In this document: piece after piece, positions 1 through 40,581 of the stretch | Layout of the letters: every line of letters starts with the position of its first letter | Position numbering within the stretch: position 1 is the stretch's first letter | NCBI GenBank assembly: GCA_948567375.1 | Contig: OX419756.1 | Span: 66,292,333-66,356,332, forward strand | Reading direction: 5' to 3' | Origin: Lunularia cruciata | Taxonomy: Eukaryota > Streptophyta > Marchantiopsida > Lunulariales > Lunulariaceae | DNA length: 64,000 nt | Notes under the pieces: model-generated | What the model saw: only the letters and a program-made list of their open reading frames with translations | Told to the model about the DNA's origin: nothing | Database searches by the model: none | Made by a program: the position numbers and the translations under genes

Positions 1-1542
1 CAATTGCAAAGAAGAAGCATCAAAATCAACCACGCAAGGTAGTTGAGGATCATATGGTTGAAGAATGGGTCTTGAAAACACCATATGTTTCAACTTCCAA
101 AATGTTTCTTTGTGCTTGGTGGTCCACTAAAAGCTCAAGTTCTTCTTCCAAGAGATCAGTCAATGGTGCATCCACATGAGCATAATAGTGGGTGAACCAT
201 CGGTAAAAATTGGCCAATCCATTAAATGCTTGTACTTCTATAGTATCCTTTGGAGTAGGCCAATCAATAATGGTCTTGATTTTCTCCTCTTCCATCTTGA
301 TCCACTCCAATGAGATCTTGTGATCCAAGAAGGTAACTCCTTTTGCCAAAAGGTACACTTTGACCTCTTGCAATAAAATTTCCACTATCATAGTTGTCTT
401 AGGACTTCTCACACGTGATTCACCTATTTTACCTTTGACTTGCTAAGGATTAAGATATCATCCAATAACACCACAACATACCAATCTAATATTCCATCCA
501 ACACCTTATGCATCAAATCCATGAAGACTGCTAGAGCATTAGTGAGCCCAAAAGGTAGAAATTTTTACTCAAAATGCACATACTTGTGCAAAAGGTAATA
601 TTTTGCAAATCCTCCCTATCATTGGAGATTTGCCAATAACGGCTACAAACATCCAACTTGGAGAAGTCACGTGCTCCACTCAATTGATCAAGCAAGTCAT
701 CAATTTGAGGCAAGGGATATGCATTCTTCACTATTTATTTATTAATCCCATGGTAGTCAATACAAAAACAAAGTCTTCCATCCTTCTTTGGAACAAATAG
801 TACCAATGCTACACAAAGAGATGTATTATGTCATATGAAATCTCTCTCTAACAACTCCGTAAGTGTTATTCATAACTCTTCCAACTCCTTTGGTGAGAGC
901 CAATAGATTGGTCTTTTCATTGGTGTACTTCCTGGTAATAACTGTATCTTGAAGGGCATACCACAATTGGAGGGTAATCCCTTTGGCAGATCATTGAGAA
1001 ACACATCCACAAACTCTTGAACTATTTGATCAACCATTGCTTGATGAGGTTCCTAACTCTCCTCATATTCTCCTTGTGAAGTCAGCTTGATCCACACCAC
1101 AAAAATATACTTATCTTCTTCCAAAGCTTGCTCTATGACTACTTCACTAACAAACTTCCCATTGAGGGACTCATTTCCCTTCAAAGCTAATCCATGGTTG
1201 CTTTCCTTACAAACTTTCCATCTGGAGACTCATCTCCTTTCAAAAATTGCTCTATGGCTACCTTCCCAACAAACTTCTCATCCTAAGACTTACTATTCTT
1301 AGGTCTCTCACTCAAAGGTGCTAGACAATCTACTCAAAAATTCCTACTTTGGTGTTGTACTTGAATTTGTTGTTAGTTCCAACCAAATTGAACCTTATGA
1401 TGTTCAAGCTAAAGTAGACCTAGAATGACATCAAAATGTAGAGGTTCCACCACAAACCTCATACACTCCAAATACTCTTTCTCAATCTTGAAGGTAACAA
1501 ATGCAAGGTATGGACTGCAAAACATTTTCTACCATTCGGCAT
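1..1542 (-). mobile_element. Older chromovirus copy, left part (RNase H to protease)
   Basis: Collinear with about 3770-5319 of the inner element, so the same family and orientation; the window edge cuts it in RNase H. RT fragments are visible: FLDHKISLEW...IIDWPTPKDTIEVQAFNGLANFYRW in the frame at 50-412 and [27 protein letters not shown] at 531-731. The FLDD box region near 412-530 is broken. Stops and indels are denser than in the inner copy. It ends at the target duplication GGCAT at 1538-1542, inside the protease, and continues beyond the inner element at 7096. Confidence 0.9.
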
Positions 1543-1646
1543 TGTAAAAGACCGAATCCAAGGAGAGAAACAAGAGAATGGAAACTCACATTGGGACACT
1601 TGAATGAGTGAAAACTCTAAATGCCTAGCATGAGCTTTGGCTTTGG

Positions 1647-1654
1647 TATTTATA
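1647..1654 (-). promoter_or_regulatory. TATA box of the 3' LTR
   Basis: Minus strand TATAAATA, identical to the copy in the 5' LTR. Because it is in the 3' LTR it would drive transcription out of the element into the left flank, i.e. into the disrupted older element, if it were active. Confidence 0.7.
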
Positions 1655-1675
1655 GGTAGCATACAAGGCCATTGA

Positions 1676-1817
1676 GAAGCTTCTCAAGAAGCTTCCTTCT
1701 AGAAGTTGCCTACTTGGCGTGCAAGTTAAGCTAGTTAGAAGCTTCTAGAAGCTTCCTTCTAGAAACTACCTACTTGGAGCGCAAGTTAACTAGTTAGGAA
1801 GCTTCCCAAGAAGCTTC
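1676..1817. promoter_or_regulatory. Heat-shock element cluster in the 3' LTR
   Basis: GAAgcTTC dyads occur at 1676-1683, 1688-1695, 1798-1805 and 1810-1817, with TTCtaGAA at 1697-1704 and 1757-1764. At 1738-1755 there are four perfectly phased modules (GAAgcTTCtaGAAgcTTC). The nearest dyad is about 22 bp upstream of the minus-strand TATA box at 1647-1654. The motif is palindromic, so strand does not matter. Confidence 0.7.
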
Positions 1818-1842
1818 CTAGATGCTTTAGGAATATTCTAGG

Positions 1843-2159
1843 CTAATTTGGCTTATTCTCTACTTTGTTAGCCTTACTAACTATGTCGCTAAACTCCATA
1901 CTATTACATATTCCTCCACTGCTAGTTGATGATGTCCTCATCGCCATTGAAGCTTCAAACTCTTGGATGGCCATTTGTGCATTTTGGAGGTGAGAAAGAG
2001 GTTCCCATGTGGCATCATGAAAGGGGTACCCTTTCCAAAGGACCTTGTACTCCGTATGGTGGTGGCGTCCTTGTTGGATATGGCAACGTGCAAGGATGCA
2101 ATCAACTTCATACTCCTCATGATCATTGATAGGGGGAGGAAGAGGTTGGACTCAAGAAG
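1843..2159 (-). pseudogene. Chromodomain and pol C-terminus, open
   Basis: A C-terminal chromodomain, which in chromoviruses reads chromatin marks to steer integration. The minus-strand frame contains YEVDCILA, then EYKVLWKGYP and WEPLSHL, which are the hallmark first aromatic and the W-K-G-Y / W-E-P elements. Unlike the rest of pol, this stretch has no stop until a TAG at 1843-1845 inside the 3' LTR. It is in frame with the integrase, separated by one TGA. The frame chosen here differs from a longer overlapping minus-strand ORF, which lacks domain similarity. Confidence 0.88.
1909..1922 (-). other. Polypurine tract
   Basis: Minus strand reads GCAGTGGAGGAATA immediately before the 3' LTR. 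This purine-rich stretch is in the position where plus-strand DNA synthesis is primed. It also encodes the last residues after the chromodomain. Confidence 0.7.
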
Positions 2160-3198
2160 AGAAAGAAGAGGGGTTAGGAACAAAGGGTTTCAACTTGGAA
2201 ACATGAAAGATAGGATGGATGCGCATATGACAAGGCAAGGCAAGTCAATAAGCAACAAGAGAGACAATTTAGGTGACATCAAAAGGTCCTATCCAATTAG
2301 GGGCAAGTTTACAAACTTGGGTATCAAGTGGGAGGGTTAGTTTACTAGAGGATAACAAAACTTTATCACCAACTTCAAAGGTGAGATCACGACGATGATG
2401 GTCCGCATATAGTTTTTGACGATTTTGAGCAACAAGGAGGTGAGATTTGGCTTGTTGGAGAGATTTGGAGATGGTGGTCAAGAAGGTTGAATTATGGGGG
2501 ACTTGAGACGGAGGAGGAGCAAGAAGAGAATCTGGGACAAGCGGATCTTGGCCAAAATTGAGAAAGAAAGGAGAGAATCCAATGCTTGCCTATTTAGAAT
2601 TATTGTATGCAAACTCCACAGCTGCAAGACATTGATCCCAATTGGTATGGTGAATGTTGATGAATGCACAAAGCATATCTTCCAAGGTGCAATTTGCACG
2701 TTCAGTTTGTCTATCAGGATGATAGGCTGTGGACAAAGCAAGCTTGGTGCCAAGTAGCTGGAAGAGTGCTTGCCAAAACTTTCCGGTGAAGCGAGGATCA
2801 CGGTCGGAGATGAGTACACGTGGTATCCCATGATGTTTGAAGACATTATTGAAGTAGAGTTATGCCAAGGTTGGAGCATCCATAGTATCAATTGTTGGTG
2901 CCAAATGGATTTGCTTACTAAGCTTATCCACAAACACCACAATTGTTATGTGACCTTGTTGTGCCTTGGGTAAGGAGGTGATGAGATCTAAGCTCACATG
3001 TTCCCAATGAGTAGCTGGAATGGGAAGTGGCTGAAGGAGTCTACTTGGCTTTTGGTTATTGGCCTTGTTACATTGACACCTCTCACACAATCAAACAAAG
3101 TCCCAAACATCTCATGTCATTTTGAGCCACCACCATTGGCTTTGGAGGGTGCCCAAGGTCTTGTCCAATCCCATATGACCAGCTATTGGTAAATCATG
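2160..3198 (-). pseudogene. Integrase of the inner chromovirus
   Basis: Inserts element DNA into the host. The zinc domain HHCC starts with H-x6-H (DLPIAG between) near 3198 and ends CERC near 3078, with two stop codons inside. The catalytic core has the first Asp in HVSLDLITSLPK, the second in LISDRDPRF and the Glu in RQTERANCTLE. The C-terminal part has the GPF-type motif (NWIGPFDVT) and FHVSKLKPF. In-frame stops lie at 2860-2862 and after YNNSK, with two more in the C-terminal part. The frame itself is unbroken through to the chromodomain. Confidence 0.9.
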
Positions 3199-3429: not shown

Positions 3430-3942
3430 AGCCTTCAAATCAGGCCATCATGATAGAGCATCAGGGATGATGTAGAACCAACCTAGTTTGTACTCAAGTT
3501 TAATGTCAAACAATTGGAGTTGCTCTTCCCATTGATGATGTCAACTCTTCATGTGCTCCAAGTGTAGGGTCTGCAACAATGGCTTGTGATCAGTTTGCAT
3601 GATCACTTGTTTCCCCAAGAGATAATGTCTCCATACCTTGGTGGCATATACCATTGCAAGTTGTTCTTGATCTCAAGCAGAGTAATTTCTTTCAGCTGTA
3701 TTTAGTTGGTGAGACACAAAGGCAATGGGATGTAGTCCATTTGGGAATTCTTGTTGCAACACAGCTCCAATTGCAAAGTTAGAAGCATCAAAATCAACCA
3801 CACAAGGTAGTTGAGGATCATATGGTTGAAGAATGGGTCTTGAAGACACCATATGCTTTAACTTTTGAAATGCTTCTTCATGCTTGGTGTTCCATTGGAA
3901 ACTCATGTTCTTTCCTAAGAGGTCAGTCAATGGTGTAGCCAC
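3430..3942 (-). pseudogene. RNase H of the inner chromovirus
   Basis: Degrades the RNA strand during reverse transcription. It begins with the RT connection (PLTDLLGKNMSFQW) and has the catalytic-Asp region VDFDASNFAIGAVLQQ, then TDHKPL, and ends with an IPDALS motif. Stop codons follow the NYSA and ALS residues, and a third lies in between. The domain is otherwise collinear and in frame with the flanking RT and integrase. Confidence 0.88.
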
Positions 3943-3951
3943 ATGAGCATA

Positions 3952-4690
3952 TTAGTGGATGAACCATTGGTAAAACCTGGCCAATCCATTGAATGCCCGT
4001 ACTTCTATAGCATCCTTTGGGGTAGGCCAATCAATAATGGCCTTGATCTTCTCTTCTTCCATCTTGATCCCCTTTGATGTGATCTTATGCCCCAAGAAGG
4101 TAACCTCCTTCTGCCAAAAGGCACACTTCAACTTCTTGCAATAAAATTTCCATTGTCGTAGTTGTCTTAGGACTTCTTGCACATGATTCATGTGTTCTAC
4201 CTTGGTCTTGCTATAGATTAAGATATCATCCAAGAACACCACCACGGACCGATCCAATAGTCCATCCAACACCCAATGCATCTAATCCATGAAGACTACT
4301 TGAGCATTAGTGAGTCTGAAAGGTAGAACTCTCCACTCAAAATGCCCATACCTTGTGCAAAAGGTAGTCTTTTGCACATCCTCTCTATCAATAGGAATTT
4401 GCCAATAGCTGCTACAAAGATCCAACTTGGAAAAGTAGCATGCTCCACTTAGTTGATCAAGCAAGTCATTGATCCGAGGCAAGGGATATGCATTCTTCAC
4501 AATTTGTTTATTGAGCCCACGATAATCAATACAAAAACAAGTCTTTCATCCTTCTTTGGAACAAATAGTACCGGTGCTCTCCAAGGAGAGGTACTATGTT
4601 GTACAAATTCCTTCTCCAACAACTCTGTAAGTGTTGTTTTCAACTCCTCCAACTCCTTTGATGAGAGCCGATAGATTGGTCTACTACTAG
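3952..4690 (-). pseudogene. Reverse transcriptase of the inner chromovirus
   Basis: Synthesises element DNA from RNA. The first catalytic Asp is in FSKLDL (codon near 4422) and the two others are in the VVVFLDDILIYSK box (codons near 4230 and 4227). FTCF-like and FLGHKIT motifs of Ty3/gypsy RT are present. A frameshift lies near 4545 between the VPKKDE motif and the DYRGLNK-like motif, and a TAG interrupts the frame just before residues MHWVLDGLLD. From about 4500 down, RT, RNase H, integrase and chromodomain are all in one frame. FLDD rather than YVDD is common in plant chromoviruses and is not a defect. Confidence 0.92.
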
Positions 4691-4987
4691 AGTACTCCTT
4701 GGGAATAACTTGATCTTGAAGGGCATACCTTGATAAAAGGGTAATCCCTTTGGCAGATCATCCAGAAACACATCCACAAACTCCTGAACTATCCAATCAA
4801 CCATTGCTTGATGAGGTTCTTGGCCCTCCATAGATTGTTCTTGTGCAATCGGCTTGATCCACATTGCATATATAGACTTATCTTCCTCCAAAGCTTGCTC
4901 TATGGCTGCTTTACTAACAAACTTCCCTTCTAGGGATTCATCTCTCTTCCAAGCTTGCTCCTTGGTTGCCTTCTTGGCAAACTTCAC
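4640..4987 (-). pseudogene. Protease-RT linker with N-terminal RT fragment
   Basis: An acidic/lysine-rich linker followed by the conserved lead-in to Ty3/gypsy RT (EFVDVFLDDLPKGLP). The frame is lost around 4680-4690, where the following RT residues (PIYRLSSKELEELK) continue in another frame. The linker contains repeated FVSKAAIEQALEEDKS-like segments, visible in DNA as repeats between about 4880 and 5050. Confidence 0.75.
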
Positions 4988-5134
4988 ATCTTGGGACTCA
5001 TCTCCCTTCCAAGTTTGCTCTATGGCTACCTTCTCAACAAACTTCCCATCTTGGGATTGAATTTTCTTAGGTGTCTTACTCAGAGGTGCCAGACAACCTA
5101 ATTGGAAATTACTACCTTAGTGTTGTACTTGAAT

Positions 5135-5494
5135 TTAGTGTCGAGTCCAATCAAATTTAACCTTATGATGTTCAAGCCAAGGTAGACCCAAAATGATATC
5201 ATAGTGTAGAGGTGCCACTACCAACCTCATACACTCCAAATACTCCTTCCCAATCTTGAAGGTAATAGGATGCAAGGTGCGGAGTGTAGAACCCTTTCTA
5301 CCATCCGCCATCATCAAACTACTTCCAATCACTGGCTTGATAAGAATACCCAATTTCTTTGCTACTTGCATAGACATGCAATTCTCTAAACTTCCAGAAT
5401 CAACCAAAATCCTACAACCCTGATTAGTTGTTGTACCTTGCAAGTGAAGCAAACTTGCATAGGTCAAGCCTTCAATCCCATTGGAACTAATCAA
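5135..5494 (-). pseudogene. Aspartic protease of the inner chromovirus
   Basis: A 119-residue open stretch carrying the retropepsin active-site triad DSG at residues 32-34 in the context RILVDSGSLENC, followed by a downstream hydrophobic LGLPWL motif typical of Ty3/gypsy proteases. It would cleave the Gag-Pol polyprotein. It is open across the domain but in a different frame from RT onward, so it is disconnected from the rest of pol. The same region of the older copy is where the inner element landed. Confidence 0.85.
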
Positions 5495-5603
5495 GCTCCC
5501 AATAGGCGGCTCAAAATCTCCTACTTGGATTCCTCATTTCCCTGATCATTCTGCTCCACAACCTCCACCAGGGCAACTTGTTGAGTTCGTCATTCTTGAG
5601 TGG

Positions 5604-6671: not shown

Positions 6672-6683
6672 GCTCTGATACCA
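6672..6683 (-). other. Primer binding site for initiator tRNA-Met
   Basis: Minus strand reads TGGTATCAGAGC directly inside the 5' LTR (one base gap). This is the sequence complementary to the 3' end of plant initiator tRNA-Met, widely used to prime reverse transcription by plant LTR retrotransposons. It fixes the orientation of the element. Confidence 0.92.
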
Positions 6684-6788
6684 ATGTAAAAGACCGAATC
6701 CAAGGAGAGAAATAGAAGAATGGAAACTCACATTGGGACATTTGAATGAGGGAAAACTCCAAATGCCTAGCATGAACGTCGGCTTTGG

Positions 6789-6796
6789 TATTTATA
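6789..6796 (-). promoter_or_regulatory. TATA box of the 5' LTR
   Basis: Minus strand reads CTATAAATACC, a canonical plant TATA box. The same sequence is in the other LTR at 1647-1654. Its position between the heat-shock elements and the rest of the LTR fits a U3/R boundary downstream of it. Confidence 0.75.
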
Positions 6797-6817
6797 GGTA
6801 GCATACAAGGCCCTTGA

Positions 6818-6992
6818 GAAGCTTCTCAAGAAGCTTCCTTGACCCGCTTTCTTAGAGTGCAAGCCAAGTTAAGTAGGAAGCTTCTCAAGAAGCTTCCTTC
6901 TAGAAGCTGCCTACTTGGCGTGCAAGCTAAGCTAGTTAGAAGCTTCTAGAAGCTACTTGCTTGGAGTGCAAGTTAACTAGTCGAGAAGCTTC
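6818..6992. promoter_or_regulatory. Heat-shock element cluster in the 5' LTR
   Basis: At least six GAAnnTTC dyads lie here, nearly all as GAAGCTTC (first GAA at 6818, 6830, 6877, 6939 and 6985; TTCTAGAA at 6898-6905). At 6939-6951 three modules are perfectly phased (GAAgcTTCtaGAA), which meets the consensus for a heat-shock factor trimer site. The cluster lies upstream of the minus-strand TATA box at 6789-6796, in the U3 position expected for an enhancer. Binding by heat-shock factor is inferred from the motif only. Confidence 0.7.
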
Positions 6993-7095
6993 TAAAGAAG
7001 ATTTCTAGATGCTTTAGGAATATTCTAGGCTAATTTGGCTTATTCTCTACTTCGTCAGCCTTACTTACTATGTCACTAAAGTCCATACTGTTACA

Positions 7096-7772
7096 GCCAT
7101 CATCAATCTACTTCCAATTACTAGCTTGATAGGAATACAAATTCCTTTGCTAACTACATGGACAAGTAATTTTTTGAATGTCCCAAATCAACCAAAATCC
7201 TACAACCACGATTAAATGTCATACCTTGCAAGTGAGGCAAACTTGCCTAGGTCAAGCCTTTGATCCTATTGGAACTAATCAAGTTCCTAAAATGCGGCTC
7301 AAAATCTCCTATTAGGATTCCTTGTTTCCCTAATCACTGTACTCCACAAACTCCATCTGGGCGACTTGTCAAGATTGTCCATTCTTGAGTGGACATTCAG
7401 TGATGCCATATCCAATATGGCAAAAATAGAAAAAACCACCATTTTGTCATAGTTTTTCTTTATCTATAGTGCCAAGTGGTCTCCTTTGAATTGCATCAAT
7501 ATCCATTGGTGCCGGCTCCTCCACTTGTGTGTAGTGTATTGGTAGGTTTTGTGGAGATTGAGGTCAAGACCAAGTTGTTGCAAGGGAATCAAAGTGTTTT
7601 GCCAACCCTATGGCTTCTTTCAAGTGTTGTGGCTCCTATATAATTACCTCTATTTGGTTCATGACTTTAAGCCCCTCACAAAACAATCCAGAGCTTCATC
7701 TTCTGATATATCTAAAATTTGCATGATGGTGTTCGAGAATTACGTGATGTAACTTCTTATAGAGCCAACTCA
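7096..7772 (-). mobile_element. Older chromovirus copy, right part (protease to gag)
   Basis: Continues the interrupted element: collinear with about 5310-5975 of the inner copy, starting with GCCATCATCAATCTACTTCC next to the inner 5' LTR. The zinc knuckle near 7395-7436 has lost its first two Cys (now Phe) and its His. Homology stops at about 7770, right before a run of ten T on the plus strand. The rest of gag and the outer 5' LTR are therefore missing from this place. Confidence 0.88.
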
Positions 7773-11270: not shown

Positions 11271-12100
11271 TCAAATGAACAAACTATTCTTACTATTTTA
11301 CTACTATTTGGTCATTATTGAGTTACCACAAGTAAATATTTGAGTTACTTGAGCTTATGAAACTTAAACCTAAGAAGACTTTCAAATTTATTATAATTGA
11401 TAAAAAAAGTCCTTCTATTCAAATTTTTAAATAAAAAATCAAATACATTACTACTAAAATATATTGATATCTTCTTCTTTTTCCTTTGCACAATTAAAAT
11501 TTAAAATATTTAATAATAAATTATACACATTAAATTATAGTAATTTACTATGGTAATATGGTTGATCTTCTATTTGTAGGTCCCAAGAAATTTCTAGAAG
11601 ACATTTAAAATAATATTAAGATCCTTCATAGAAATGTACTTAAAAGGTACTTTGGAACTTTCTAGTAACCCAATAATGAATGAACTAACCAAATAATGCA
11701 TAGAAGAATTTTCATATAGACTTGGGCAATAAGGTATTGATGAATCATCTCAATAATTATGTAACATGGCTAAAAATTAACTTCTTTCTTTATGAAGTAA
11801 CCTTGTACCAAAATTGCACTATGATTTGTACTAATTTGAATCTCAATCTTATGAACTAAGTTGTTTTGAAGATAGATAAATTCTTGGAGAAGAGTGGTGC
11901 ACCAAACTCCTTATAATTTTTCCATTATACTTGCTTCTTATATTCTAGCCATGTCTACTTTACAATGTGAAAATTCTTATGCAAGCAAATAATTCTATAT
12001 ATCCTCTCCACTTAGATCTTGGTTCCTATCCTCCTATTTTCAAACAATTGGAGAATTTTCATTCAATTCAATTATTAGTTTGTGATTAAGATTCCCATTG
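11271..12100. other. AT-rich spacer
   Basis: No coding, repeat or RNA signature recognised. CpG is almost absent. Confidence 0.5.
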
Positions 12101-13434: not shown

Positions 13435-13731
13435 TCTCAAATTTCATACTTGTAAAAGTATGACATATCTTTAGATTGAATAAAGTAAGATTTAAGAATT
13501 TCACTTTAAGATTGTTCCTAGTAAACCATTACTTTGTTTACTTCCCCCATTTAAATACTCTAGCATGCTAGTACAAGAAAATTTCTCAAATTTCATACTT
13601 GTAAAAGTATGACATATCTTTAGATTGAATAGAGTAAGATTTAAGAAATTCACTTTAAGATTGTTCCTAGTAAACCATTTTTTTTTACTTCCCCATTTCA
13701 ATACTCTAGCATGCTAGTACAAGAAAATTTC
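13435..13731. repeat. Dimeric tandem duplication, ~149 bp
   Basis: Units at 13435-13583 and 13584-13731 both run from TCTCAAATTTCATAC through GACATATCTTTAGATTG to TCTAGCATGCTAGTACAAG and are highly similar. The first unit begins immediately at the end of the LINE-like tail. The ORF at 13501-13701 is an artefact of the duplication. Confidence 0.9.
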
Positions 13732-34900: not shown

Positions 34901-35068
34901 AGCATATTAGTGAAGATTCCAGTAAGGGAATGAGAGTGCATACTCTCACTAAGATCGTTTCTATCTTCTTAGATGATTGAAATATTATATTCTTTGAATT
35001 AGGAAGAAAAATCATTTAAATGCAAGGTGCTTTCTACGAGTAAGGACAAGCAATAAACAAAGATTTAC
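31923..35068. other. Mosaic spacer, no gene recognised
   Basis: Several ORFs of 60-94 residues on both strands overlap each other and none has a domain I know. Composition is intermediate, returning to AT-rich from about 33960 to 35100. Confidence 0.45.
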
Positions 35069-35383
35069 GATTAAAGGTTAAACAAAGATATGATTGAAAA
35101 TCAAAGATTTCTTGAGTTTACTGTCAAAATAGATGCAAACGGAAAGGGGTAATTATGCTTATCTTTAATAAAATGGAGATTATGCTCTTCACATTGCTAT
35201 GAAATTTAGAAGATGTGGTAAACAATTTAAGATTAAAGGTTAAACAAAGATATGATTGAAAATCAAAGATTTCTTGAGTTTACTGTCAAAATAGATGCAA
35301 AAGGAAAGGGGTAATTATGCTTATCTTTAATAAAACAGAGATTATGCTCTTCACATTGCTATGCAATTTAGAAGATGTGCTAA
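35069..35383. repeat. Dimeric tandem duplication, 162 bp
   Basis: Units begin GATTAAAGGTTAAACAAAG at 35069 and 35231 and are nearly identical through GGGGTAATTATGCTTATC and CACATTGCTATG to AGAAGATGTG. This is one of the youngest-looking duplications in the window. Confidence 0.95.
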
Positions 35384-40218: not shown

Positions 40219-40372
40219 AAAAAGGCGATCGCGTAGGACAAATGAAGGATGGGAAGGACCCATCAAGCCGTACAAAGGAGAGAAAAAAAAGTAACATGGG
40301 GCTAAGCCCCAATAGAGTCTGTATGAGAAATCTGCCCTACAGCACCTAAGATATCCGAGCTATGCAAGATGG
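40219..40372 (-). repeat. LINE-like 3' tail repeat, longest minus-strand copy
   Basis: Reverse complement matches 17314-17466 from GCATAGCTCGGATATC through GGGGCTTAGCCCC and TTGTACGGCTTGATGGG to CCTACGCGATCGCCTTTTT. It keeps CpG at the terminal motif where the 17.3 kb copy has TG/CA. A run of T follows the terminal motif on the minus strand. Confidence 0.75.
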
Positions 40373-40581
40373 ACATTTAGCGATGTCTGAGAAGATGCAT
40401 CTTGCCATTAATTACCGGTTTTGTTTTGACGTTCAATGGATGTCCCCTCTGTTGCTAGCAAGGCAAGGTCAACCAAAAGATGGACATTTAGCGAAGTCTG
40501 GGAAGATGCATCTTGCCATTAATTACCGGTTTCGTATTGACGTTCAATGGATGTCCCCTCTGTTGCTAGCAAGGCAAGGTC
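40367..40581. repeat. Dimeric tandem duplication, 111 bp
   Basis: Units start AGATGGACATTTAGCGA at 40367 and 40478 and are nearly identical to AGCAAGGCAAGGTC. The first unit abuts the 5' end of the LINE-like tail copy. The 85-residue ORF at 40362-40619 exists only because 111 is a multiple of three. Confidence 0.95.

Follow-up and report, generated by a model that had tools for sequence, protein, structure and literature searches.

The retrotransposon ONSEN (COPIA78), a Ty1/copia element of Arabidopsis and its relatives, carries a four-module heat-shock element (HSE) in its LTR promoter, upstream of the transcription start, and the available part of one report derives this HSE from the duplication of an nTTCnnGAAn proto-element (PMC5059998). 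The same text links the '4P' class of ONSEN to strong induction by heat (884-976-fold in A. lyrata and A. thaliana) and gives a 185-fold response for Ballantinia ONSEN, where 4P is present in two of three copies and the gap element is listed as absent. Activation of ONSEN needs HSFA1 factors, according to excerpts of PMC3907296. Heat-responsive Ty3/gypsy elements are reported in Cryptomeria and Scots pine, as retold from Ujino-Ihara (2020) and Voronova (2011) in the accessible text of PMC9780303, with heat-induced transcripts for those of Cryptomeria japonica (Ujino-Ihara 2020). That text also ascribes LTR promoter activity in heat to PHRE1 and PHRE2, Ty3/gypsy elements of moso bamboo; in the portion of the PHRE main text at hand, other 'temperature-responsive elements' are given and the abbreviation HSE is absent (PMC8656106). 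TCN3 of Cryptococcus neoformans is likewise a Ty3/gypsy element with putative HSEs in its LTR, and its transposition in vitro occurs only at 37 C, but it is fungal, has two putative HSEs, and Hsf1 action is offered as a suggestion (PMC12810828, in part). In the extract of PMC6927752, the Helitrons of Caenorhabditis are described as transposable elements that have spread clusters of HSEs.

The locus analyzed here lies in a window of 64,000 nt, the first 8 kb of which hold a minus-strand LTR retrotransposon of the Ty3/gypsy chromovirus type. It resembles ONSEN in having a four-module HSE in the LTR promoter and differs from it in being a Ty3/gypsy element with a chromodomain and in having the HSE within repeated units of ~60 bp. 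The elements of Cryptomeria and moso bamboo and TCN3 share its superfamily. The spread of HSEs by transposition that is proposed here would parallel the Helitrons, which differ in being DNA transposons and in that HSF-1 binding has been demonstrated for them. The initial annotation described the case as convergent with ONSEN in another superfamily. The superfamily is indeed another one, but the novelty is smaller than stated, because heat-responsive Ty3/gypsy elements (PMC9780303, PMC8656106) and the HSEs of TCN3 (PMC12810828) had already been reported, at least in the parts of these papers available; the present case thus joins a known kind of element. Among the matches listed from open-licence literature, none described a plant chromovirus with a phased HSE in its LTR, which is a weak negative. 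The parts of the element are as follows.

6685..7095, minus strand: 5' LTR, 411 bp, TGTAACAG...CTTTTACA
1543..1908, minus strand: 3' LTR, 366 bp, TGTAATAG...CTTTTACA
7096..7100, unstranded: target-site duplication, GCCAT
1538..1542, unstranded: target-site duplication, GGCAT
6672..6683, minus strand: primer-binding site TGGTATCAGAGC, one base inside the 5' LTR
5135..5533, minus strand: aspartic protease piece (PF13975, PF09668)
3952..4545, minus strand: reverse transcriptase (RT), two open pieces (PF00078)
3673..3951, minus strand: RNase H piece (PF17919, PF17917)
1843..2151, minus strand: open piece with chromodomain (PF00385, E 9.6e-14)

The LTR termini are TGTAA...TTTTACA, with the TG...CA ends present, and the flanks GCCAT/GGCAT of the target-site duplication are identical at four of five bases. 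The primer-binding site presumably fits the initiator-methionine tRNA. Ten pieces of the element were scanned against Pfam and five had matches, which give the minus-strand order protease, RT, RNase H, and chromodomain; three pieces at the place expected for integrase (2269-3090) had no Pfam match to it. This arrangement differs from the ONSEN-type Ty1/copia order, with integrase before RT, in that RNase H and then the chromodomain follow RT in the Pfam matches, integrase being unplaced. The chromodomain after pol, the LTR ends, the duplication, and the primer-binding site together identify the element as a Ty3/gypsy chromovirus, and the earlier assignment is thereby borne out. The RT piece has 13 protein matches with 49-64% identity. 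In viral contigs, the exact 22-base pattern of the TATA region was found in 0 stretches, and patterns of the RT and chromodomain pieces occurred in 8 stretches and 1 stretch, respectively, none of which was confirmed by tblastn. Ten further ORF pieces, including four in the first 7 kb, had no match at the Pfam cut-off, and the window contained no Rfam match at gathering scores and no detected tRNA. The chromovirus type, the primer-binding site, and the abundance of repeats in the sequence suggest that the host is a plant.

The coding region of the chromovirus is interrupted by stops, and this copy is a dead fossil; any heat response therefore belongs to the past of the family or to other copies. 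The 5' and 3' LTRs differ by a K2P distance of 0.085 (21 transitions and 7 transversions over 352 aligned sites). Substitution rates of 2.2e-9 to 1.5e-9 per site per year place the insertion at about 19-28 million years ago, and rates of 7e-10 and 1.3e-8 give about 61 and 3.3 million years, respectively; these are general rates that may not be those of the host. The element inserted into an older chromovirus copy of the same family (1-1542 and 7096-7768), which matches the internal region at 83% over 1-1542 and at 81% over 7120-7768. The match to the older copy stops around 7768, and no LTRs belonging to that copy were detected in the window, where blastn (E 1e-3) likewise detected no LTR remnants beyond the two LTRs. 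The 3' LTR has 0 and 1 CHG sites on the two strands and 4 CG sites, which is reminiscent of the ONSEN promoter, and the 5' LTR has 4 and 5 CHG sites and 7 CG sites. An old copy may also have lost methylated sites by decay, which explains the CHG scarcity of the 3' LTR equally well.

A canonical HSE comprises at least three alternating nGAAn/nTTCn modules in continuous 5-bp phase, and each LTR contains such a run. The runs, the TATA boxes, and the surrounding repeats are located as follows.

1738..1755, unstranded: perfect four-module HSE GAAGCTTCTAGAAGCTTC, self-complementary, exact 5-bp period, 3' LTR
6939..6951, unstranded: three perfect modules GAAGCTTCTAGAA, 5' LTR counterpart of the 1738..1755 cluster, adjoining a 14-bp indel
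1647..1654, minus strand: TATA box TATAAATA, 3' LTR
6789..6796, minus strand: TATA box TATAAATA, 5' LTR
1675..1819, minus strand: tandem U3 subrepeats, period 60, 2.4 copies, 3' LTR
6897..6994, minus strand: tandem U3 subrepeats, period 46, 2.1 copies, 5' LTR
1676..1695, unstranded: off-phase GAAGCTTC pair of the 3' LTR (4-bp spacer), closest to the TATA box
1798..1817, unstranded: off-phase GAAGCTTC pair of the 3' LTR (4-bp spacer), most distant from the TATA box among its three pairs
6818..6837, unstranded: off-phase GAAGCTTC pair of the 5' LTR (4-bp spacer), closest to the TATA box
6877..6896, unstranded: off-phase GAAGCTTC pair of the 5' LTR (4-bp spacer), in a unit absent from the 3' LTR

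Both the four phased modules at 1738-1755 and the three at 6939-6951 agree with the initial annotation, as does their placement upstream of the minus-strand TATAAATA, the phased clusters of the two LTRs lying 84-155 bp upstream. The 1738-1755 element itself occupies positions -101 to -84 relative to the TATA box on the coding strand and is the only phased four-module run in the 64 kb. The same 18 bases occur inside an HSE oligonucleotide for pull-down in a paper on HSF1/HSF2 (PMC8492855) and inside a synthetic HSE2-lacZ reporter in a paper on yeast Hsf1 (PMC4214751), and in the portions of these papers at hand both laboratory sequences have the same inter-module dinucleotides, gc and ta. A scan with at most one mismatch returned six sites of at least three units in the 5' LTR and five in the 3' LTR, as raw counts without chance control. 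One of these near-HSEs, GAATATTCCTAAA, is found in the U3 of both LTRs outside the subrepeat. According to a wheat survey, as partially available, HSEs that contain mismatches respond about as strongly as canonical HSEs (PMC7010933), but the parallel is loose, since the mismatch is in the middle unit in the classes of that survey and in an end unit in GAATATTCCTAAA and GAAGCTTCTTGAG. Outside the LTRs, the only run of at least three modules within the window is the phased three-module run GAAATTTCTAGAA at 11587-11599.

The clustering of GAAnnTTC in both LTRs was confirmed. Each LTR contains seven occurrences, against dinucleotide-shuffle means of 0.19 (5' LTR) and 0.15 (3' LTR), and none of 5000 shuffles of each LTR, made from cuts extending 1-5 bases past the final LTR ends, reached at least seven. 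The LTRs hold 17-19 occurrences per kb and the remaining window 0.54 per kb. The whole window has 48 occurrences (14 of them inside the two LTRs) versus a shuffle mean of 30.3, and 48 was reached in 1 of 100 shuffles. Runs of at least three modules appeared in 40/5000 shuffles of the 5' LTR and 22/5000 of the 3' LTR, and runs of at least four in 3/5000 and 0/5000, respectively. However, the module clusters are copies of the ~60-bp U3 subrepeat, so that their counts are not independent, and the shuffles destroy the subrepeat units and thus overstate the number of independent events and the surprise. In simulated whole windows, a four-module run was present in 12/300 (order 2) and 10/300 (order 3), and the four three-module runs observed were equalled in 13/300 and 19/300, respectively. 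One four-module run per 64 kb is therefore only moderately rare, such a run appearing in 3-4% of simulated windows, and its notability comes from its place in a U3. When up to two mismatches were allowed, 12 four-module sites were counted in the window versus 6.8 expected, and 12 was reached in 5 of 100 shuffles.

The spacing of the modules qualifies the phasing that was originally proposed for 1676-1817. One phased cluster per LTR stands, but the region is not one phased array, because the other intact pairs have 4-bp spacers. The 5' LTR has two intact close GAAGCTTC pairs and the 3' LTR has three. In four of these five the spacer is 4 bp long (TTGA in three and TTGG in one), and the 2-bp spacer is found only at 1738-1755. 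A single 2-bp indel thus separates an off-phase pair from a perfect element. The five pairs do not count as independent clusters, because the two LTRs share the TATA-proximal one. The 5' LTR counterpart of 1738-1755 lacks 14 bp beside its pair and keeps three modules; because the longer form is common to another unit, this gap is probably a later deletion. Because insertion left the element with two identical LTRs, the agreement between them is evidence neither of independent conservation nor of selection. The LTR differences fall on 2 of 46 positions in the GAAGCTTC cores and 26 of 306 outside (p 0.56), giving no sign of constraint on the modules, as is also expected of a dead copy, so that the comparison is uninformative.

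The arrangement supports a consensus-quality candidate HSE in the U3, and the reading preferred here, with a probability of roughly 0.58, is that this U3 was a heat-shock-factor (HSF)-responsive promoter acting as an ONSEN-like heat-shock enhancer. Under this reading, a ~60-bp subrepeat with paired GAAGCTTC palindromes would have been multiplied upstream of the TATA box, and in one unit the pair, 2 bp apart, would form a continuous four-module element able to hold one HSF trimer with a spare module, the 4-bp-spaced GAAGCTTC pairs serving as weaker flanking sites. Heat-activated HSF would bind the U3 and drive transcription from the TATA box, which in turn would yield genomic RNA and new insertions under heat. 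Because the promoter holds a perfect copy of the HSF signal, heat probably activated this family at one time, and it is reasonable to infer, as the initial annotation did, that the family 'is, or was, heat-inducible'. The reading applies to the family while it was active, the present copy being dead; HSF binding, heat induction, and a benefit to the family are inferred from a single insertion, whose two LTRs are not independent.

The repeat structure may instead be the cause rather than the carrier of the phased run: an 8-bp palindrome could have been duplicated for reasons unrelated to HSF, and a chance 2-bp indel could have brought one pair into HSE phase. This explanation is less likely. 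In its favor, the clusters are copies of one unit, four of the five intact close pairs are off phase with a single pair having the 2-bp spacer, and simulated windows produce a four-module run somewhere in 64 kb in 10-12 of 300 cases. It does not readily account for the match of gc and ta to the laboratory HSEs (as given in the excerpts of those papers), for the place of the run in the U3 close upstream of the TATA box, or for GAATATTCCTAAA, a further near-HSE of this U3 that is not part of the subrepeat, one-mismatch sites having been counted without chance control.

The paired palindromes could also have been kept because they form stems, either in the DNA or in the U3 RNA with which the genomic transcript ends at its 3' side. 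The predicted folding of the U3 RNA is indeed better than that of shuffles (z -4.53 in the 3' LTR and -5.75 in the 5' LTR, a level that none of 200 shuffles reached for either LTR), but such folding is expected of any palindromic repeat array and the predicted folds differ between the two LTRs of this one insertion. Hairpins are a highly improbable reason for the pairs. A further alternative accepts binding of an HSF to the U3 and ascribes it mainly to a developmental HSF, such as one active in seeds, or to an HSF of another stress, such as oxidative stress, instead of heat. HSFs share the same DNA element, which this alternative draws on, but heat is the simplest trigger, and a mainly non-heat role appears improbable.

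An extension of the HSF-responsive promoter reading is more speculative and seems rather doubtful. The ~60-bp U3 enhancer repeat might act as an evolvable heat switch, in which the 4-bp spacing is off phase and weak and the 2-bp spacing is phased and strong, and in which varying unit number and the toggle between the two spacings would tune the heat response between copies via small indels and unit gains, in a chromovirus and not in a copia element. The number of clusters is three in one LTR and four in the other. If the family is heat-inducible, capture of HSF by LTRs would have occurred not only in copia elements but also in chromoviruses. This would suggest that retrotransposons repeatedly come to hijack the heat response, and with every insertion a strong, ready-made HSE would be spread through the host genome.

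Repeats are also present elsewhere in the window. Within the coding region of the chromovirus, between protease and RT, tandem repeats of ~60 bp at 4875-5058 produce repeated peptide units, and the older copy shows similar off-register matches. Direct repeats in tandem are located at 35063-35383, 40366-40581, and 13435-13684, with spacings of 162, 111, and 149 bp, respectively, and are 96% alike in each case.
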